Shown piece by piece: positions 3,615-63,777 of a stretch of 64,000 bases of DNA. Source of the stretch: an uncultured eubacterium 1-6. GTDB lineage: Bacteria > Bacillota > Clostridia > Lachnospirales > Lachnospiraceae. Each line of letters opens with the position of its first letter. The first letter of the stretch is position 1. The notes below the pieces were generated by a model. That model was not told the origin of the DNA. It saw only the letters and a program-made list of their open reading frames with translations, and searched no databases. The DNA lies in assembly GCA_903789595.1 (NCBI GenBank), contig CAIFEZ010000020.1:1-64000 (forward strand), given 5' to 3'. A program made the translations under genes and the position numbers.

Positions 3615-4202
3615 CTACTGCCTCTCGACAGCTTTCCTCACAGTTCTGGCGGCCCTTAATTCTCCGACCGGAGTTACCTTATCCACATCCGCGCTCACAG
3701 ACAGATTGAAAATATCCCGAAACGCCGCAAAACTCTGATTCAAGAAGGAAACCGACGTTCCGCCTTTTCCGCAGCTTACCTCAACCGCCGGACGGGATGC
3801 CGGCATAACCTGCGCCTCCACTCTCTCCTCCGCCTTTCTCTCCGCCATATTCTGCGCATCAATATCCCGGTCATACCGGCTGTTTCCGGCAAGACACACC
3901 TCTGCTCCCGCCGCCAGATACCAGTTCCGGTTATGCACATAGAAACACAGAATGATCAGCAGTGCAGTCAGCAGCACCGTCGCCGGTACAATAAACGACG
4001 CTTCCACCGTCATGCTTCCCTTCGAGAGCCGCGCCGCCTTCTCACGCAGGGCAGCGTACCCTCGGTGTTCTCTTCCATTCCTTTCTTTCCCGCTTACTTC
4101 TTTTCCACTTACTTCTTTTCTGCTTACTTCTTTTCTGCTTACTTCTTTCCCACTTACTTCTTTTCTATTTACTTCTTTTCCACTCACTTCTTTTGCACTC
4201 AC
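3615..4202 (-). CDS. TadE-like pseudopilin with repeat-rich leader
   Basis: Residues around 62-90 read KGSMTVEASFIVP followed by a single hydrophobic helix. This is a TadE-type class III prepilin signal: cleavage after G, with E at +5. The mature part is about 130 residues. The 62-residue cytoplasmic leader is far longer than usual and consists mostly of KEVSG/KEVSR/KEVNR repeats. The start is a GTG at 4202, itself inside the repeat, with GAGGAG spaced 8 nt upstream. The likely role is a minor pilin or assembly factor of the Flp pilus, processed by one of the two A24 peptidases encoded in the locus. The function is inferred from family and neighbours. Confidence 0.8.
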   Translation of the reverse strand: MSAKEVSGKEVNRKEVSGKEVSRKEVSRKEVSGKEVSGKERNGREHRGYAALREKAARLSKGSMTVEASFIVPATVLLTALLIILCFYVHNRNWYLAAGAEVCLAGNSRYDRDIDAQNMAERKAEERVEAQVMPASRPAVEVSCGKGGTSVSFLNQSFAAFRDIFNLSVSADVDKVTPVGELRAARTVRKAVERQ

Positions 4203-4208
4203 TTCTTT
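4074..4208 (-). repeat. In-frame 15-nt minisatellite, about 9 copies
   Basis: On the minus strand the unit AAAGAAGTNAGYGGN repeats about nine times. It spans the start codon of the TadE-like gene and encodes KEVSG-type pentapeptides. The period is divisible by three, so copy-number change would keep the reading frame. Confidence 0.85.
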
Positions 4209-4306
4209 TTCTCCTCACTGCTCTTTGAAAATGCAGATAAATTCCTTGCCAATAAAGCATTCATAAGGGATCCTGCGGCAAAAGAGAGATTCTGCGGCAT
4301 AAGTAT

Positions 4307-4720
4307 TCACCGGAGAGTCAATCCGAAAGCGAGCAGTATCGTACAGGACAGCCATAAAAACGGCACAAACGGCAATATTATTTTCTTTTCCGAGCGCACC
4401 GCTTTCATTACGGCTCCCGTGAGGAGAGCCGCGATGAGCGCGAGAATCAGAATCCTGCAAATTGTAAAAAGATCACTCCATGCTCCGCACGCGAGGAGCA
4501 CGATTCCATCGCCCGGTCCTACCTTTTCCCTTGTCAGAACAGCGGCCAGAAGAAAAAGAATCCCCGGAAACATTGCCGGCAGATCGATTCCCTGCCGGGC
4601 GATGATGCCGGACACGAGAAGCAGGAACGTAAATCCCGGCAAAATTCGAAAGGTTCTCAGATCAGATACGCCATTTACCGTCAGAATCAGCAACAGCGCT
4701 CCGTTACTCAGACATTTCAT
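4307..4720 (-). CDS. A24-family prepilin peptidase (second in Tad locus)
   Basis: This small polytopic membrane aspartic protease belongs to the TadV/CpaA-like class. The two catalytic aspartates are visible in GVSDLRT near residue 20 and in the GPGD motif near residue 65. About five hydrophobic segments follow. I start it at the ATG at 4720 (MKCLSNG), with AAGGA a few bases upstream. The longer track ORF is out of keeping with the family. The stop codon of the upstream TadE-like gene is one base away, so the two genes are translationally coupled. It would process TadE-like or Flp prepilins. A second A24 gene lies at the head of the operon. Confidence 0.85.
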   Translation of the reverse strand: MKCLSNGALLLILTVNGVSDLRTFRILPGFTFLLLVSGIIARQGIDLPAMFPGILFLLAAVLTREKVGPGDGIVLLACGAWSDLFTICRILILALIAALLTGAVMKAVRSEKKIILPFVPFLWLSCTILLAFGLTLR

Positions 4721-4721
4721 T

Positions 4722-5597
4722 TTATTCCTTGCCTTCTTCTGCGGCACACCGGCTGCAGATATGCATTCCTTCCGCCTCGGAAGCCGGAACGAGATGAACC
4801 TTCCTCGTAAGTCCGCTGCACCGCGAAGAATTGTGATAGCAGTCTCCCTCTCCGGTGATATACACAAGGCCGTGCATTCCTCCCTTTCCGACACATTTCT
4901 CACAGGCGTGATACCTTCCTCCTCCGGCATTCCGCATCGCGGGGACCAGCGCCGAGGGCACCTTCCGGATCTTCAGCTCCAGATAGGTGCATTCCGAACG
5001 GGTGTGATAAACACTCCCGTACTCTGTCACATATACCAGCCGGTTTTCCTCCTCCGAAGGAAGCTCCCGATTTTCCTCAGGATCCCTTCCCGTCCATGCA
5101 TGAACCCTCCCTCTTACGGCAATCCTTCTGCCCGGAATCGGAACCGGAAACCACTCCGGTCTGTAAGAAACAGGCTCACAAAGATCAATGACGGACGGCC
5201 CCTGATAAGTCCCGACAAGGCCCGCAGCCGCCCCTGTTTTCTCGACGGCTTCCTGAAGGCGGACCATCCTTTTTACATACAGGCCGTAAATGTCCATCAT
5301 ACAGATCAGTGACGTCACACACAGAAAAAACAAGGGAACCGACCATGCCGCTTCTACGGTCAGACTTCCTCTTCTCCATCTGCCTTTTCTTCCCGCTGTT
5401 CTTCTCTCTGCTCTCTCCTCCGCTCTTCTCGCTGCTCTTCTGCCTGTACTCGCCTTCTCTCTTTTCGCTGCTCTTCTGTCTGTTCTTCGCTCTTTTCTTC
5501 CCGCTGTTTGTCTGTCTGCTCCTTCTTCTTTTCTTTCCGCTGTTTGTCTGTCTGCTCCTTCTTCTTTTCTTTCCGCTGCTTCTCCTTTGATTATCAC
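4722..5597 (-). CDS. TadE-like pseudopilin with basic repeat leader
   Basis: The motif RRGSLTVEAAWSVP followed by a hydrophobic helix near residues 76-105 is a TadE prepilin signal. The leader of about 77 residues is highly charged, with a 12-residue repeat (AERKEEGADRQT, two full copies) and further RRAARRAEERAERR-type sequence. The mature domain is extracellular and cysteine-containing, with CHxC-like groups (HACEKC, HICSRC) that could bind metal or form disulfides. The start is GTG at 5597 with AGAGGA 7 nt upstream. It is coupled to the downstream A24 peptidase. A role as a minor pilin of the Flp pilus is inferred. Confidence 0.75.
   Translation of the reverse strand: MIIKGEAAERKEEGADRQTAERKEEGADRQTAGRKERRTDRRAAKREKASTGRRAARRAEERAERRTAGRKGRWRRGSLTVEAAWSVPLFFLCVTSLICMMDIYGLYVKRMVRLQEAVEKTGAAAGLVGTYQGPSVIDLCEPVSYRPEWFPVPIPGRRIAVRGRVHAWTGRDPEENRELPSEEENRLVYVTEYGSVYHTRSECTYLELKIRKVPSALVPAMRNAGGGRYHACEKCVGKGGMHGLVYITGEGDCYHNSSRCSGLTRKVHLVPASEAEGMHICSRCAAEEGKE
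5505..5576 (-). repeat. 36-nt in-frame tandem repeat in TadE-like leader
   Basis: Two nearly identical 36-nt units encode AERKEEGADRQT twice, followed by a diverged third unit. It parallels the 15-nt repeat in the other TadE-like gene. Confidence 0.8.
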
Positions 5598-5895
5598 GAT
5601 TTTTTCCTCTGCCTGAGATGTGCCACTTCCGCCCGCACGAAGTGTGACACATCAGATCATTTGTACGGAATCCGTCGGGCTGCCTCCCGAATGCGCTTGG
5701 ATCCGGGAATACATTCGCAGAATTATCTCATGTCCTTTCTCATGATAAAATATTATTTTGTAAACGGCCGCGCACGATGCGCCCGCCTGCGTTTCCGCAG
5801 AGCTTATACTGTATTTTTTGTCGTTTTAGGTGTAGGGGGAATATCAGACCCTCCCGCAAAGCGGGAGACACCCCGCCGGATTCCGTGTGATCAGG
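5598..5895. other. Intergenic gap with hairpin and R2 remnant
   Basis: No gene is seen here. A perfect 7-bp hairpin CTCCCGC-aaa-GCGGGAG lies at 5851-5867 without a T run, so termination is uncertain. The stretch near 5790-5816 (CAGAGCTTATACTGTA) resembles one terminus of the R2 repeat family. Confidence 0.5.
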
Positions 5896-7455
5896 TTACA
5901 TATCGTATCCGTAGCTTCTCTCCGCAGTATAGGTATTGGTACCGACGGACGCGCCGATCTCTACGCTTACCGCATCGATGCAGTGATCCAGATGAAAATT
6001 TTCCTTTCCCTCATGGGTCCGGATATTGAGCTCCGTCAGATCCATAATTCTCTCCGTCAGCTTCTTTGTTCCTTCGCCCAGGAGCAGAATCCTCAGGTAA
6101 TCCCTGTATTCCAGCCCGGCCGCGGAAGATTTTCTCTCCCCGTCCGCTGCGGATGTGAATCTTCCGAGATTTTCGATGGAAAGCTGCCAGGACTCCGCGG
6201 TCTTTACCAGCGGTACTTTCCCGCCGCGGGTCAGGACCTGGAGATCCAGTATTGACTCCCCGTAAGCCCACGCCACACGGATCGCGAATGCCAGAACCGG
6301 CGCGAGCTCCGGATTCAGAAGCCCCGCGCTGATCCCCGCGGCCAGCAGATCCGCCTGCGCCCTCTTGTCCGGGTCCGTCATCAGAAACGCCATATTCGAA
6401 GCCGCTCTGAGAACCTGCATTTTCGACAGAACCACCTTCAGATTGTCCCGGTCGTTTCGCCTTCCTCCTATGGCATACTCCGCCTGGTAGGCGAGCGGTT
6501 TCTGCTGATCCTTATCTGAAAAGCACGGAAAATCCTCGATCAGAAATTCCTGAATCAGAATCTTTTCCATCGGACCTTCCCACTCCGACGGGGTCATGCC
6601 CATCCCCAGAGAATGCTCTCTGCCGCTCAGCAGCTCCCCGGCGCTTACGCTTTTCCGGGAAAGCCCGGATTCTCCTTCTCCAAATACAAGCTTCAGCAGT
6701 CCTCTGCCCCGAAGGAGCTGATAAGAAAGAAGCGGGTTCTCCCAGACAGGCACCACATTGCCGCCGAATCCTTCTGCGATTTCCTCCGCCGATGCTTCCT
6801 CCGCGCCGTCCCCGCTCTGTTCAGCCGAGGGCACCGGACGGCACAGCCCCTCGGCCACATCTCTGTCATAATACGCCTGCGCATTTTCCGTCCGGTAAGT
6901 GCCCGCCTGTCTCTCCAGCTCTTCCGCTTTTTCTCCATTCTGAAAGACACCCTCCGACATCTTTTTCAGGAGCTCTGCTCCGGCCTGAAGCTTCATCTGT
7001 TCACATACCTGTCTCCGAAAGGCAGTGTTTTCCTGATCGGTCGCCAGGACATAGCCTGTCATCGAGCAATTCTCCCGGTTCAGCCGTATGCTCAGCAGAT
7101 TGCCGCCTCCCGTCAGATTGTTCTTCGTCGGATCCAGAATATACTCCGACCAGGTCTCCGTCTCCCGGAGCACCTCGTCCAGGCGCAGGCCGGATGCCCC
7201 GTATCCCCCGTCCAGAAACAGCAGACCGTAATCCTCGAACAGCTCGCGGTCATACTGCGCAAATACCGAGTACAGTCCCTGCTCCAGAGCGCTTGCCACT
7301 GTAGCTCTCGCGGCTGCCTGGCGCATGGATTTCAGTCCCGCAAGGATCAGCCCCAGGAGAACCAGAAGCAGCAGACTGACAAACAGCGTAATGCTGCCCC
7401 GGCTCATTTTTTCTCTCTGTCTGCCCGCTGACAGATTCCGCATCGTGTCCCTCAT
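5896..7455 (-). CDS. DUF5702 domain protein of the Tad locus
   Basis: A single N-terminal membrane helix follows RGSITLFVSLLLL, and the rest is about 480 residues predicted outside the membrane. Length, position and N-terminus match the DUF5702 proteins found in clostridial Tad operons, which resemble TadG-like surface components. GAGG lies 7 nt before the ATG at 7455, and the gene begins only 10 nt after the flp stop codon. The protein is probably anchored at the cell surface and needed for pilus assembly or display. The molecular role is unknown. Confidence 0.8.
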   Translation of the reverse strand: MRDTMRNLSAGRQREKMSRGSITLFVSLLLLVLLGLILAGLKSMRQAAARATVASALEQGLYSVFAQYDRELFEDYGLLFLDGGYGASGLRLDEVLRETETWSEYILDPTKNNLTGGGNLLSIRLNRENCSMTGYVLATDQENTAFRRQVCEQMKLQAGAELLKKMSEGVFQNGEKAEELERQAGTYRTENAQAYYDRDVAEGLCRPVPSAEQSGDGAEEASAEEIAEGFGGNVVPVWENPLLSYQLLRGRGLLKLVFGEGESGLSRKSVSAGELLSGREHSLGMGMTPSEWEGPMEKILIQEFLIEDFPCFSDKDQQKPLAYQAEYAIGGRRNDRDNLKVVLSKMQVLRAASNMAFLMTDPDKRAQADLLAAGISAGLLNPELAPVLAFAIRVAWAYGESILDLQVLTRGGKVPLVKTAESWQLSIENLGRFTSAADGERKSSAAGLEYRDYLRILLLGEGTKKLTERIMDLTELNIRTHEGKENFHLDHCIDAVSVEIGASVGTNTYTAERSYGYDM

Positions 7456-7464
7456 TGGTCTTCC

Positions 7465-7644
7465 TCAGATTCCCTGGCTTTTGCTGGTGATCTTGCTCAG
7501 AATATTCGACACCAGGCTGGTGAGCTGGCTCTTGAAGATAATGACAAGGCCGATCAATACAACGATGATCAGAACGATTTCCACCGTACTGATGGCGTCC
7601 TCTTCCATCCAGAAGTTTCGTATCACATTCTGCAAGTTCTTCAT
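7465..7644 (-). CDS. Flp1-like type IVb pilin (major pilin candidate)
   Basis: This 59-residue gene is too short for the ORF track. The sequence MKNLQNVIRNFWMEEDAIST leads into a hydrophobic helix with the processing motif A-ISTVE, which places Glu at +5 of the mature chain as in Flp pilins. The mature pilin would be about 42 residues, typical for Flp. GGAGG lies just upstream of the ATG. It sits between tadC and the DUF5702 gene. It is the only Flp-type pilin visible, so it is the likely shaft subunit. Confidence 0.85.
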   Translation of the reverse strand: MKNLQNVIRNFWMEEDAISTVEIVLIIVVLIGLVIIFKSQLTSLVSNILSKITSKSQGI

Positions 7645-7871
7645 TTTGTCCTCCTTTTCTTCTCAAAAATTCTTCTCCGCTTTCTTCCTGTGATCTGTTT
7701 ACACTTATCTGACCAGACAGGAATCCCACAGCACCTTTATCTCCTCATTATCAGATAAAAAATCGTTTCTTTCAGATATCCGGTAAACAATAACCTTCTC
7801 CGCCATCCTGCGGCGCGGGCGCTTATACAGTTTGCGGCACTATGTGCCGTGCTTCCATCTCCCTGATTTTC
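7645..7871. other. Gap upstream of flp; small palindrome
   Basis: No gene is seen. A perfect palindrome CGGCAC-tat-GTGCCG lies at 7835-7849 and an R2-like terminus GCTTATACAG at 7821-7830. The gap may hold a separate promoter or processing site for the highly expressed pilin, but no clear promoter stands out. Confidence 0.4.
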
Positions 7872-8330
7872 TCAAAGCTGCATGGTCGCGGGAATGATTA
7901 TGATGAGCAGTACAATGCCAAGCATGACAAACATCGGAAACGCCATGCGTACGGCCGCCCGGTCTCCATCCGCTCTTGCCCGCCTCTTCCGGGTTTCAAA
8001 AGCCTCCTGCACCTCCTTTTCCAGCATTCCCGACAGCTGGCTGCCTCCCTTTTTCTGGCTCTGCGCAAGAAGGAGCGCCAGCTTTCTGTATTCCGGCGTG
8101 CCGCACCGCTCCCCGAAGTGTGTCAGAGCATCCTGCTCATACACCCCGTTATTCATCTCTGCCACGGTTACGGCTACCTCCCGATACTCCTTTCCAAGCC
8201 TCTCCATCGCCTTTCTCACGCTGAGTCCCGCTGCCGTAAGCAGCTGCAGCTTGCTTACCAGCTCCGGATACTGGCCGGTAAGCACCTTCCTTCGCTTCTG
8301 CTCCGCCTTCTCTTTCCTGTCCTTCCCCAC
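7872..8330 (-). CDS. TadC-like T2SSF protein, C-terminal part (split gene)
   Basis: This fragment carries a type II secretion system F domain (YPELVSKLQLLTAAGLSVRKA through the EALTHF-like helices) and a C-terminal hydrophobic helix. The ORF opens at a GTG at 8330 with no Shine-Dalgarno sequence. It continues in the -1 frame from the upstream 309-residue ORF, which it overlaps by 76 nt. A single extra T in the TTTTT run near 8331-8335 would join the two into one TadC-like protein of about 435 residues. The gene is therefore most likely one frameshifted tadC, though an assembly error or recoding cannot be excluded. Confidence 0.75.
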   Translation of the reverse strand: MGKDRKEKAEQKRRKVLTGQYPELVSKLQLLTAAGLSVRKAMERLGKEYREVAVTVAEMNNGVYEQDALTHFGERCGTPEYRKLALLLAQSQKKGGSQLSGMLEKEVQEAFETRKRRARADGDRAAVRMAFPMFVMLGIVLLIIIIPATMQL

Positions 8331-9184
8331 AAAAAGGGCGCGATCCCGGCCAGCAGAATGATCATGCAGAGATAGGCTCCTTTATGCTCGATTTTTCTGT
8401 ACCAGATCAGCTTCTGTCCGTCCGCCTCCTCCGGAAGCAGATACTCCTCCGACAGATCTCTTCCGTTCCTCGCGGCTCTCTCATTCAGCATCTCACTTTC
8501 CTTTTGAATTCTTTTTCGCACCGCCTCCTTTTCTCTGGAAGGATACACCGTCATCACCCTCTGATATTCTTCCTCCTCTCCTGACAGTGAGAGCTTTCCG
8601 GTCAATGTCACCTCCTCCCCGTCCTCCGGAACCTCGGGGGAGAGAACGCCCTCCCAGCTGACAAGATCCGGCCGGTCGGTGGACCACTCCGCCGTCATCG
8701 AAGGATTCGTGAAGCTCTCCGGAAGCTCCAGGTTCCACTCGACCCTTTCGAAATCTTCGTTTCTTCCCAGGATTCTCCCGTCCAGCGCCTGTATCTCCTT
8801 TCGCAGCTCTGCTTCCGCCGCCCGGGAGGAATAACCCGGTCCCTGTATCTCAATTGTGATCTTCTCCTTTTCGCCCCTGCCGGAGGCAACGGCCAGATCC
8901 ACCTGTTCTCCCGCGGTTTCCCCCGATGTCCTCCTCACGGATTGCACCGTCTCCCAGTCTCCCTCCTGTATTTCCCGAAAGACCAGCACTCCTGTGGCCG
9001 CGGTACTGAGGATCAGTACGAGGAAAAAGGCCCCGGATATCTTCTGATGACGGAAAAGCCAGATGACAGCCGCTGCCGTAGCTGCCGGAAGCACCATTTT
9101 AATCAATTTTTCCTCCCTTCCCGCTGTAAACGATTCACACCTCAATCCTGCACAGCTTTCTTCCCGCCAGAAACGCACCCGCAT
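8255..9184 (-). CDS. TadC-like protein, N-terminal part with Ig-like region (split gene)
   Basis: Two membrane segments near residues 30-70 are followed by an extracytoplasmic-looking region of about 170 residues with a beta-rich Ig-like pattern, then a third membrane helix (GAYLCMIILLAGIAPFL). After this the frame runs into an Arg-rich nonsense tail, while the T2SSF domain resumes in another frame at 8330. The gene starts inside the end of tadB (50-nt overlap), as expected for coupled tadB-tadC. The insertion of a large domain before T2SSF appears to be a feature of the clostridial family from memory. The frameshift may inactivate the platform protein. Confidence 0.7.
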   Translation of the reverse strand: MRVRFWREESCAGLRCESFTAGREEKLIKMVLPAATAAAVIWLFRHQKISGAFFLVLILSTAATGVLVFREIQEGDWETVQSVRRTSGETAGEQVDLAVASGRGEKEKITIEIQGPGYSSRAAEAELRKEIQALDGRILGRNEDFERVEWNLELPESFTNPSMTAEWSTDRPDLVSWEGVLSPEVPEDGEEVTLTGKLSLSGEEEEYQRVMTVYPSREKEAVRKRIQKESEMLNERAARNGRDLSEEYLLPEEADGQKLIWYRKIEHKGAYLCMIILLAGIAPFLWGRTGKRRRSRSEGRCLPASIRSW

Positions 9185-9941
9185 ACAGAATCAGACAGAA
9201 GGTCATCAGGACGGCACCTGCCGGATTTCCGTAAATTCTGTCGGAGAATCCTTCGAATGTCACCCTCATGTATAGGATGATTCCCGCCGGCATGAAGCTC
9301 ATGATACTCTGCTCATATCTTCTGGCAGCTGTAACCGTATCAATTTCCTGCCGGGTGTCGATCTTCCCGCAGATATTTCTCCAGGTTGACTCCAGGATGT
9401 GGCTCATATCTCCGCCTGTCCGCTTTGCGATCACCAGAACCTCTCCGAAATTCATGATATCCTCCACCCCGCTCCGCGTTCCGAGCTCAAGGAACAGCTG
9501 CTCTGCCGGTTTTCCGAACCGCATCTGCCCTGTAATATCCTTCAGTTCCACTGCCAGCGCGTCCTTTCTGCCATACAGCTTCGCGAGGTCGGCAGCCGAC
9601 ATGCGGACACCGTTTTCCAGAGAGTATCCGGCTAGAAGATTGGTGTGCAGAGAGGACAGAAAATCCCGGAAATGATAATTCAGCAGCCGCTGCCTCTCCT
9701 CCCTCTTCTGCTTCTTCTTCGCGAAAAGATAGAAAACCATGACCGGGATGGCCGCCGGCACCGCATAAACCGAGTTGTAGCACAGCCATACCACGCACAG
9801 TCCCAGAAGCAGACCGGCCGAACCGTACTTCAGAAGCTCCGGAGCTGTGAAATGATAAACCCGATAGTCCGTTCTGCCTTTCTCACGGGAGGTCCCGCCT
9901 CCTCCAAAGCTTCTCCAGTTTTTCACGATTTCCAAGCTCAT
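9135..9941 (-). CDS. tadB: TadB-like inner-membrane platform protein (T2SSF family)
   Basis: Two N-terminal membrane helices (LLKYGSAGLLLGLCVVW and following) precede a T2SSF domain (FRDFLSSLHTNLLAGYSLENGV), and two helices close the protein. This is the usual TadB layout of 268 residues. The domain should interact with the TadA ATPase to drive pilin insertion. The start overlaps the end of tadA by 59 nt, which is long, so translation is presumably coupled; the next in-frame starts lie deeper in the protein. Identity to the TadB/TadC class is clear from order and fold. The letter B rests on position after tadA. Confidence 0.85.
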   Translation of the reverse strand: MSLEIVKNWRSFGGGGTSREKGRTDYRVYHFTAPELLKYGSAGLLLGLCVVWLCYNSVYAVPAAIPVMVFYLFAKKKQKREERQRLLNYHFRDFLSSLHTNLLAGYSLENGVRMSAADLAKLYGRKDALAVELKDITGQMRFGKPAEQLFLELGTRSGVEDIMNFGEVLVIAKRTGGDMSHILESTWRNICGKIDTRQEIDTVTAARRYEQSIMSFMPAGIILYMRVTFEGFSDRIYGNPAGAVLMTFCLILYAGAFLAGRKLCRIEV

Positions 9942-11091
9942 TGACTTTTCTCAGCACTCCTTCTCTGTCCCGTTCAAACAGGGTGCGGATCACCGGCTCC
10001 TCTCCCTTCATCCCGGAAATCTCCGCGATTTCTCCGAGCCTCCTTGTCCCGTCTGCCTCCCTCGTCAGATGAATCATGATCTCCACTCCGGACACAATCT
10101 GCCTGCGGATGACGGAAACCGGAAGCTGCTCTCCCATCAGAACCATCATTTCCAGCCTCGAAATCATATCCCTCACACTGTTGGCATGTGCTGTGCCCAG
10201 GCTTCCGGAATGTCCCGTATTCAGGCACATCAGAAAATCCTCCGCCTCGGCTCCGCGCACCTCTCCTATGATGATCCGGGTCGGCCGCATTCTGAGGGCC
10301 GCCTTGATCAGATCCCGGATCGTGACGGCATGCGCCCCGTCCAGGTTTGCGTCTCTCGCCTCCATCCGCACCAGATTCGGAATGCCCTGAAGCTGGAGCT
10401 CGGCGTTGTCCTCAATCGTGATGATCCGCTCCTCAGACGGAATACAGGAGGAAAGCGCGTTCAGAAATGTCGTCTTCCCCGTCGATGTGCCTCCTCCGAT
10501 TAGCATCGAATACCGTGCCTCCACGAGATCCCGCAGAAAAACCGCCGCTTCTCTTGTCACACTTCCCCAGCGGATCAGATGATCAAGCGTCACCGCCTCC
10601 TCCGGAAAACGGCGTATCGTGAGAATCGGTCCGTCGAGCGCGATCGGATTCAGGACAACGTTCACGCGCGAGCCGTTGTCGTCCGGAAGCCTTGCGTCCA
10701 CAATCGGTCTCTGTTCATTCACCACCCGGTTGCATCTTCCCACAATCTGCTGAATCACGTCCTCCAGCCTCTCTCTTGAGGCAAAGTGCCTTTTCCACGA
10801 ATACAGCCGGCCTCCCTTCTCAAAAAAAATATGGCGGTATCCGTTTACCATGATCTCCGTGATCTCCGGGTCGTCCATCAGCTCCTGCAGGACATCCAGC
10901 CTGCGCACCGAATAGAACAGCGATTTGTGAAGCTGCTCCTTTTCCGCCAGCGACAGCGGTGACGCAGACGGTTCCTTCAGAATCAGATCATCGATGAATT
11001 CCTGAATTTCCGCGTCCTCCAGATCCGGGTTATCCTCCAGATGATCCATCAGGCAGATCCGTATTTTCTCAAAGATGTCCTCGTTCCGCAT
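9883..11091 (-). CDS. tadA: TadA/CpaF-type secretion ATPase
   Basis: This is the motor ATPase of the Flp pilus. It has Walker A GGGTSTGKTTFLN, an Asp box (IITIEDNAELQL), Walker B (TRIIIGEVRGAEAEDFL) and a His box (TGHSGSLGTAHANS), all characteristic of the TadA/VirB11 type IV secretion ATPase family. At 402 residues it is complete. The ATG at 11091 has GGAGGAGGAAG upstream inside the end of tadZ, which it overlaps by 43 nt. It acts as a hexamer at the inner face of the membrane with TadB/TadC. Confidence 0.94.
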   Translation of the reverse strand: MRNEDIFEKIRICLMDHLEDNPDLEDAEIQEFIDDLILKEPSASPLSLAEKEQLHKSLFYSVRRLDVLQELMDDPEITEIMVNGYRHIFFEKGGRLYSWKRHFASRERLEDVIQQIVGRCNRVVNEQRPIVDARLPDDNGSRVNVVLNPIALDGPILTIRRFPEEAVTLDHLIRWGSVTREAAVFLRDLVEARYSMLIGGGTSTGKTTFLNALSSCIPSEERIITIEDNAELQLQGIPNLVRMEARDANLDGAHAVTIRDLIKAALRMRPTRIIIGEVRGAEAEDFLMCLNTGHSGSLGTAHANSVRDMISRLEMMVLMGEQLPVSVIRRQIVSGVEIMIHLTREADGTRRLGEIAEISGMKGEEPVIRTLFERDREGVLRKVNELGNREKLEKLWRRRDLP

Positions 11092-12125
11092 CGCTCTTCC
11101 TCCTCCGTTGTCTCTCCGGGATCCGCGCAGCCCCGAATGATCCTTCCCAGCCTTCCGGACATCTGTCTCTCCAGAAAATCACCCCCTCCGGGCATGCCGT
11201 CGGGGTCCGGAAGTATCACCTCGCGTATCCTCTCTCTGCCCGCGCACGCCTCCAGCTCGTCGGCAAACGCCCGGTTTCGCATTCTGGAAACCGGATCGTC
11301 ATGCGCGATGACATAGATCTCCTCACAGCTCTGCAGCAGCTCCTCAAACCCTTCCATCTGCCAGTCCAGATCCAGAAGAATTCTGCGATAAGTACTGGTC
11401 CTTGTCAGTTCCCCGATCATCCCGGTCCACTGCTCCTCTGTCATCTCCGCGATGTCCGACGCATCCTTCACGGGAAGCAGATAATCCAGCTGGCCGAATT
11501 TGCCAAGCATCGTATTCAGCTGGTAAATCAGTCCGCTCCTGCCCCTCCGGTAGAAATACATCAGATCACTGAGCGTCCGCATGCCTTCCTTTTCGTCAAG
11601 GAACTGCTCCATGCCAGACCTCGGCTCCAGGTTCAGATAAAGACTCGGAAATCTTTCCGCAAGGATACGCCCGTACAGCATGGAAAAAATCACCTTCTGC
11701 CCCGGGTCAGACACGGAGCATATCCCGGTTCTCAGGCAGGACGGTTTCGCGATAACTTCCGGACCCGTCGCGGCTTTCTCCGCACCGTAACAGTCCATGA
11801 CCTCTCTGACCACGCGGCTCTGGCTCTGGTATTTGTAGACCTGCCGGCACTTCGCCTTTTCCGGAAATGCATCATTCAGGAGATCGGCGCCGTCCTCCGT
11901 CAGAACGATCACCGTCCCGACATCCATCTGACGCACCTCGTCATCGGCGGCCTTTTCCGAAATCAGCAGAATCTCAATGTGATGACCTTTTGCAAATTCT
12001 CTCAGCGTCTCCACCGAGGTAAAGCTCTGGATTTCAAACGGAAGATTTTCCTTCTCCGTCAGATAATTCATGAAACGAACCGCATATTCTCTTTCCGTGT
12101 CGCACACGGCAAGTATTTTTTTCAT
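11049..12125 (-). CDS. TadZ/CpaE-like pilus localisation protein
   Basis: The N-terminal 120 residues are receiver-like (ILAVCDTEREYAVRFMNYL). The second half has the MinD/ParA-like fold of TadZ, but the Walker A lysine motif is absent, as in the degenerate clostridial members (SVSDPGQKVIFSMLYGR occupies its place). It lies directly upstream of tadA, the standard order. TadZ proteins mark the pole or assembly site for the pilus. Loss of ATP binding suggests a purely structural role here. The family call rests on fold pattern and position rather than one strong motif. Confidence 0.8.
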   Translation of the reverse strand: MKKILAVCDTEREYAVRFMNYLTEKENLPFEIQSFTSVETLREFAKGHHIEILLISEKAADDEVRQMDVGTVIVLTEDGADLLNDAFPEKAKCRQVYKYQSQSRVVREVMDCYGAEKAATGPEVIAKPSCLRTGICSVSDPGQKVIFSMLYGRILAERFPSLYLNLEPRSGMEQFLDEKEGMRTLSDLMYFYRRGRSGLIYQLNTMLGKFGQLDYLLPVKDASDIAEMTEEQWTGMIGELTRTSTYRRILLDLDWQMEGFEELLQSCEEIYVIAHDDPVSRMRNRAFADELEACAGRERIREVILPDPDGMPGGGDFLERQMSGRLGRIIRGCADPGETTEEEERCGTRTSLRKYGSA

Positions 12126-12200: not shown

Positions 12201-12743
12201 TCAATACAGCCCGGCCGCCCAGGGGATCAGCCCGGCGAACACATAAACCGCCAGATGCACCCGCTCCTCCGGACGGCTGCTATTCCAGTATGGTTCCCAC
12301 ATGACAGATGGCCGGAGCAGGACAGCGGATCGGACTATGTATATATATGTCTTCAGATATCGGAATCTTTCAGAAAAGCAGACGCGGTTTGAATCAGGCC
12401 ATGAAATGCAGGAACGCAGAACGGCACAGACAGCCGCCGACAGAAAAGTAAGCAGGAGCAGGCGGAGAATCTGACCGGGCGCCATAAACACCCCGATCAG
12501 CATCAGAAGCTTGACATCACCCGCCCCGATCATCCGGAGCAGATAGAAAGGGAACAGAAGCAGAAGGGGAATCAGCGCAGACAGAAATTCCGGATGCCGG
12601 TAGCTGTCCCGGAACAGCAGGAGCTGCCCCGCCAGACTGAAAAGAAGTCCGGTCAGAAGCCACAGGTTCGGGATCCGCTCCTCCTTCAGATCAAAGAGCG
12701 CCGCTCCCTCTGCAAGAGTCAGAACGAGAAAACGTGTATTCAT
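12201..12743 (-). CDS. A24-family prepilin peptidase (TadV-like), first gene of Tad operon
   Basis: This polytopic membrane protease has catalytic aspartates in LFDLKEERIPN near residue 18 and in the GAGD motif near residue 74, followed by hydrophobic helices. Its 180 residues fit the short TadV/CpaA class lacking the N-methylation domain. It begins the operon, about 145 nt after a good candidate promoter. A second A24 protease is encoded at 4307-4720, so the pathway may divide pilin and pseudopilin processing between two enzymes. No strong Shine-Dalgarno precedes the ATG at 12743. Confidence 0.87.
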   Translation of the reverse strand: MNTRFLVLTLAEGAALFDLKEERIPNLWLLTGLLFSLAGQLLLFRDSYRHPEFLSALIPLLLLFPFYLLRMIGAGDVKLLMLIGVFMAPGQILRLLLLTFLSAAVCAVLRSCISWPDSNRVCFSERFRYLKTYIYIVRSAVLLRPSVMWEPYWNSSRPEERVHLAVYVFAGLIPWAAGLY

Positions 12744-25487: not shown

Positions 25488-25667
25488 ACTGTATAAGCTC
25501 CGGATTGCTCCGTGCTTCGCACTCTCGCAATCCTACAAGCATAAGCACTCTCGTGCCGCTCCGCGTCACTTCGTGCTTATGCTTGTTGCCTTCGAAATCG
25601 CAGACCGTCTCGCTCGCACGCTTCGCGTGCGGCGTGCCGCTCCGCGTTTTCGAAGAGCTTATACAGT
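25488..25667. repeat. R2 family complete copy, 180 bp
   Basis: Perfect terminal inverted repeats ACTGTATAAGCTC / GAGCTTATACAGT enclose nested hairpins: GGATTGC/GCAATCC, ACAAGCATAAGCAC/GTGCTTATGCTTGT and CGCACGC/GCGTGCG. It is a tandem neighbour of the previous copy at a 186-bp period. No gene lies in 25092-25762. Confidence 0.85.
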
Positions 25668-42313: not shown

Positions 42314-42371
42314 TGCGTCTGATTCAGCATACGGGATTGACACAGAAAAATAAAGCGGCTAGAATGAGAAA

Positions 42372-42466
42372 AAACAGCAGGGGAGTCCGCCAAAAGGACT
42401 GAGATACAGATGTTGTCTGTGACCCTTATACCTGATCTGGATCATGCCAGCGTAGGAAGCGCAGAG
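42372..42466 (+). promoter_or_regulatory. TPP riboswitch (THI box)
   Basis: The conserved core is present: GGGGAGTCC, GGACTGAGA, GACCCTTATACCTGATCTGG, ATCATGCCAGCGTAGGAA. It should sense thiamine pyrophosphate and control the downstream thiamine-binding gene. Confidence 0.93.
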
Positions 42467-42509
42467 AAAAGCAAGGGATTTTTTCGTGGAGAATTCGCTC
42501 TTCATCCTT

Positions 42510-54096: not shown

Positions 54097-54245
54097 CAAA
54101 AAAGCGGCCCAACAAGTACTGAATTGGATCCGCCGACCAATTCCCTTATTGTTCGAGTATCTCGCTCAGGTTGGCACCTTCCGTCTCCGGGGTTGCCGTG
54201 GTTTCATAGATCCTATGTATCTCCGCCACTCTGAATAAGAGAAAG
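54097..54245 (-). promoter_or_regulatory. SAM-I riboswitch (S box) with terminator
   Basis: On the minus strand CTCTTATTCAGAGTGGCGGA, GAAACCACGGCAACC, GGAAGGTGCCAA and a closing CAATAAGGG are the S-box core. It is followed by the GCGG...CCGC stem with TTTTTT (54097-54134) as expression platform, upstream of metK. Confidence 0.93.
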
Positions 54246-56747: not shown

Positions 56748-56929
56748 CTGTATAAGTCCACGCGTCACTACGCTGCTTCGCAGCTTCCGTGCCGCTAACA
56801 GGCATTCGCATTCCCGCGGTGTTCCACACCGCTCCATGCTCATACCTGTTGTCGTCGCAAAGCCATAGCCGGCCTTGCACGCCCTTCGGGTGTGCAGTCC
56901 GTCTCTGTCATGCGACTGAACTTATACAG
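56748..56929. repeat. R2 family copy, 182 bp, diverged
   Basis: Termini CTGTATAAGT / ACTTATACAG are perfect over 10 bp. Internal hairpins occur at GCTGCTTCGCAGC, GCGGTGTTCCACACCGC and CACGCCCTTCGGGTGTG. The sequence differs from the other R2 copies but length and ends agree. With the preceding palindrome it fills the 512-bp gap aroK-gdhA. Confidence 0.7.
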
Positions 56930-63552: not shown

Positions 63553-63777
63553 CATGCGAAGCGCGCGATGAGCCCGACTGCGTTTTCTCCTTCTTCAATG
63601 TATAAGCTATAGATTGCTCCGTGCTTCGCACTCTCGCAATCCAACAAGAATGAGCACTTCCGGTACGCTTTTGTGTACCTTCGTGCTCATTCTTGTTGCC
63701 TTCGAAATCGCATCCTGTCTCATTCGCACGCTTCGCGTGCGATGAGCCCGACTGCGTTTTCGAAGAGCTTATACATT
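63553..63777. repeat. R2 partial copy plus complete 181-bp copy
   Basis: A right-end fragment (GATGAGCCCGACTGCGTTTT) at about 63568 precedes the complete copy 63597-63777, whose termini are AATGTATAAGCT / AGCTTATACATT. The internal hairpins match those at 25488-25667. Confidence 0.85.

Follow-up and report, generated by a model that had tools for sequence, protein, structure and literature searches.

The Tad Operon and the Split tadC Gene

The window, i.e., the whole 64-kb stretch of DNA that was analysed, belongs to a rumen-type Lachnospiraceae genome and carries a Tad operon on its minus strand (Table 1). The tadC gene codes for one of the pilus's two membrane platform proteins; it adjoins genes for the TadA ATPase, TadB and the Flp pilin, and it encodes a T2SSF domain as well. 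All ORFs of the operon were open except tadC, and the remark of the initial annotation that the rest of the operon is intact was borne out for pilin, TadA, TadB, TadZ and peptidase. TadE-like proteins and a second peptidase are also encoded in the operon. The TadE-like proteins contain long charged Lys/Glu/Arg repeats preceding a membrane helix, and one of them has two Cys-x2-Cys motifs after that helix. A 40-bp similarity at another site of the genome raised the question whether the spacer separating tadC from the pilin gene is a repeat, but with one copy found within 3 mismatches it is not a close one. No second copy of tadC was found in the genome. Elsewhere in the window, copies of the Clostridiales-1 RNA and two riboswitches were observed.

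Table 1. Features of the tadC locus and other elements of the 64-kb window.
Feature	Coordinates	Strand	Remarks
TadE-like proteins	3615..5600	-	
DUF5702 protein	5896..7455	-	
Flp-type pilin	within 7430..7700	-	short intact ORF (MKNLQNVIRNFWMEEDAISTVEIVLIIVVLIGLVIIFKSQLTSLVSNIL...)
tadC, C-terminal part	7872..8330	-	cytoplasmic T2SSF domain, last membrane helix; possible GTG start
Out-of-frame tail of the N-terminal ORF	8255..8330	-	stop at end
Frame-change T5 run	8331..8335	-	one base fewer than the sister frame (Phe-Phe there)
tadC, N-terminal part	8331..9106	-	two membrane helices, aBig_2-type Ig-like external domain, beginning of the third membrane helix
aBig_2-type Ig-like region of TadC	8400..8900	-	between second and third membrane helices of Lachnospiraceae TadC
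tadB	9135..9941	-	platform partner protein, intact
tadA	9883..11091	-	assembly ATPase (T2SSE), intact
tadZ-like gene	11049..12125	-	intact ORF, weak TadZ-like_ARD match
Prepilin peptidase	12201..12743	-	Peptidase_A24, intact
Clostridiales-1 RNA, three copies	25494-25661, 56753-56924, 63602-63772 (-)		RF01699
TPP riboswitch	42369..42475	+	
SAM riboswitch	54143..54241	-	upstream of metK-like gene

The two halves of tadC were found in different frames, as an N-terminal ORF of 309 aa (8255-9184, minus strand) and a C-terminal ORF of 152 aa (7872-8330, minus strand), which overlap by 76 nt. At the break there is an A run on the plus strand (c-AAAAA-gggc), read as GCCC-TTTTT-GTGGGG on the coding strand. 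The alignment with two sister species locates the shortage of one base precisely in this T run and contains no further frame-changing gap inside tadC. Both the ORFs and the sister alignment agree with the initial annotation, which had given the two frames, their overlap and the position of the T5 run with the right coordinates. TadC is not encoded as one continuous membrane protein in this genome, whereas it is continuous in the sisters. An ATG at 9184 was considered as the start codon, but it overlaps the end of tadB. The likely start is instead the TTG at 9106, since this codon and the GGAGG upstream of it are both conserved in the sisters.

Domains and Predicted Structure of TadC

The C-terminal part of TadC matched the T2SSF domain of Pfam (PF00482, 9e-11), while a weak match of the N-terminal part to the Ig-like aBig_2 domain (9.8e-5) was below Pfam's cut-off. 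The structure predicted for an intact sister TadC (mean pLDDT 78, pTM 0.46) places the break at residues 256-259, inside a helix of 51 residues (241-291) that is modelled as connecting the third membrane helix with the T2SSF domain. This helix spans the join, in line with the earlier proposal that one added T would unite the halves in a plausible helix. In a fold search with the same sister protein, the PDB matches at E ≤ 0.001 were to the extracellular arabinanase AbnA only, over about 100 columns and with low TM-scores. This match presumably covers the Ig-like part, and no PDB match to the platform domain was found at that threshold.

The Ig-like region was also compared within a family set comprising the window's tadC and the TadC proteins of loci L018-L046. 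It could be aligned in all 30 members, 19 of which matched aBig_2 at E ≤ 0.01. We found no description of an Ig-like region in Lachnospiraceae TadC in the literature searched. An external domain of the platform protein may make contact with the pilus or the cell wall.

tadC in Related Genomes

Three relatives, the nearest ones, could be aligned at the join, with DNA identities over the gene of 86% (sister species G004), 83% (sister species G010) and 72% (congener G005). A public scan returned matching tadC records from Eubacterium sp. UBA4343, Lachnospiraceae bacterium hRUG896 and Eubacterium sp. UW_Xyl_LCO2. All three relatives had a single uninterrupted tadC frame, in G005 over the part of the gene that was covered. 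Their sequences across the join, CCT TTT TTT GCG (G004), CCA TTT TTT GCA (G010) and CCC TTT TTC ACC (G005), contain two Phe codons, whilst the window reads CCC TTT TTG TGG and is one base short. The orthologues of close relatives are thus intact, as expected for a recent pseudogene. With relatives continuous in the same reading frame, the alignment indicates that the break is not a matter of chance. The comparison covered three congeners, all intact, and a single genome of the species itself.

The survey was extended to 120 genomes of the family, one per genus. TadC was matched in 115 of them, i.e., in the window genome and 114 other genera, and internal stops were reported in none. Two suspiciously short matches (G120 and G080) were inspected, and partial matches (G054, G078, G083 and G090) were left out. 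In G080, TadC has a natural short form that lacks the Ig part and carries a membrane helix directly before the T2SSF domain. The only split tadC seen among the 114 other genera was that of G120, with its break in the Ig-like region, at an A6 run (CCAAGGAAAAAAGCGACG; L065, G120:C49, approximately 79.4-80.7 kb, minus strand); this frame break is independent of the one in the window. As a control, TadA was matched in 116 genomes, and internal stops were reported in four. Since one split tadC among 114 other genera stands against four genomes with internal stops in tadA, tadC is not broken unusually often across the family, and an excess of tadC breaks was rejected.

Age and Origin of the Lesion

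The dN/dS ratios of the N-terminal part of tadC were 0.12-0.15 between window and sisters, compared with 0.13 between the intact sisters, and those of the C-terminal part were 0.03-0.05 and 0.04, respectively. These values indicate purifying selection on both halves, as in the relatives. No second lesion, either another stop or another frameshift, was visible in tadC. Because the ratios match those of intact sisters and a second lesion is absent, the break is either very recent or an error.

Our preferred explanation, with a probability of roughly 0.7, is a strain-specific deletion of one base in a T6 run, which has made tadC a pseudogene only very recently. We infer that the base is truly absent from the DNA of the cell; a consensus error may account for the break instead and is the main rival. 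By that account the strain carries six Ts and an intact tadC, and the five Ts stem from sequencing or assembly. We regard this as a serious alternative, though a distinctly less probable one. The change is a single base in a homopolymer, the surroundings of the break are all intact and under purifying selection, and the draft assembly has N gaps and low-complexity debris in other places, e.g., poly-C/poly-G debris flanking a gap of 10 Ns in L090 (G000:C4, 7006-7248), which is probably an assembly artefact. However, a run of five or six Ts is short for a consensus error in short reads, and the poly-C debris beside the gap suggests that short-read chemistry was used. The rate of frameshifts was assessed in 849 kb of the genome (the window and sampled stretches) against 746 kb of congeners. 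Among 149 reference ORFs with a homologue in this sample, tadC was the only conserved gene with a clear frame break, and the frameshift error rate of the assembly is therefore low in the sampled genome, which favours a true mutation over an error. Homopolymer error throughout the genome was rejected as well: other flags were mostly antisense or shadow ORFs or of low identity, with four ambiguous cases (L097, L104, L122 and L106).

Switching, Recoding and a Functional Split

The initial annotation had left four options for the break. A fresh mutation and a sequencing error stay in consideration, while phase variation and recoding have become unlikely. That slippage in the T run gives reversible phase variation is, in our view, very improbable. 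In one version, the run would be a low-rate on/off switch of the Tad pili, selected where a population divides into adherent and free cells; this version is just as improbable. The length of the run does vary between species, from T5 here to T6 and T7 in sisters, though all sisters are in frame. Under the switch reading, the A-run break in G120 would hint at tadC as a preferred target for breaking the pilus, but the family-wide comparison with tadA argues against it. Phase-variable genes are recognised by long or unusual tracts, and the T5 run of tadC is neither; 1867 A/T5 and 606 A/T6 runs were counted in the 849 kb of this genome. Runs of five or six Ts are too short for frequent slippage. 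Moreover, the run is interrupted by TTC in G005, and with all three aligned congeners in frame, no on/off pattern was seen at this site across the genus.

Production of a full-length TadC by programmed -1 frameshifting or transcriptional slippage is less probable still. The frame required is indeed -1, and a hairpin could form downstream (minimum free energy -31.6 kcal/mol), but this structure was not clearly better than shuffles (z -1.52), a heptamer scan found no X-XXY-YYZ slippery site in the N-terminal frame of tadC, and the relatives have no need of recoding, the split not being conserved there. Equally doubtful is a functional split with the C-terminal part translated from its own GTG as a separate subunit: a GTG is present at the break and short TadC proteins without the Ig part exist, as in G080, but no Shine-Dalgarno sequence precedes the internal GTG, the upstream frame runs 76 nt beyond it before ending, and the C-terminal fragment lacks the preceding membrane helix that the short TadC of G080 retains. 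We consider all three readings unlikely, because the tract is ordinary, the gene has neither a slippery heptamer nor a Shine-Dalgarno sequence for the GTG, and the genome has no spare tadC.

Consequences of the Proposed Deletion and Comparison With Known Systems

With the one-base deletion, a single T would have been lost from the T6 run, and translation would give the N-terminal part, followed by about 25 wrong residues and a stop. The T2SSF domain would be cut off from the membrane helix that precedes it, and it is probably translated inefficiently. In other systems, the T2SSF domain contacts TadB and the TadA motor. Since TadC would be lost, assembly of the Tad pilus should stop, and the strain probably could not build the pilus. 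The break is a single event not shared by close relatives, and it is best read as ordinary gene loss or, less likely, as a sequence error, rather than as a switch. Should the deletion be real, the strain would be a naturally Tad-negative mutant whose operon is otherwise intact; it could serve as a control in pilus studies of rumen Lachnospiraceae, and the case cautions against inferring pili from the presence of genes alone. If the deletion is not real, it is of little importance.

The gene corresponds to the platform protein TadC (CpaH) of Tad/Flp systems in its T2SSF domain, in its position next to tadB and tadA, in the presence of pilin, TadZ and prepilin peptidase in the operon, and in that almost every Lachnospiraceae genus of the sample has a homologue. 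It differs in that the gene of the window is broken and that TadC of Lachnospiraceae has an added Ig-like external domain. In culture, Tad/Flp fimbriae are known to be lost spontaneously in the rough-to-smooth variants of Aggregatibacter actinomycetemcomitans, most of which had promoter SNPs and one a large deletion of the locus; their phenotype was tested, and no reversion of the smooth variants was reported (PMC9239275). As there, the Tad locus of the window would be disabled by mutation, but here the lesion is a coding frameshift whose effect on the pilus is predicted, and an origin in culture is not assumed. Another parallel is given by the strain-specific frameshift pseudogenes of Propionibacterium (Cutibacterium) acnes HL096PA1, 17 of 79 of which were checked by PCR and Sanger sequencing (PMC3666418). 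Like these, the putative tadC frameshift is recent and unique to one genome. Strain-specific frameshift pseudogenes are common (PMC3666418), and the split tadC requires no new kind of system, but is an ordinary finding.
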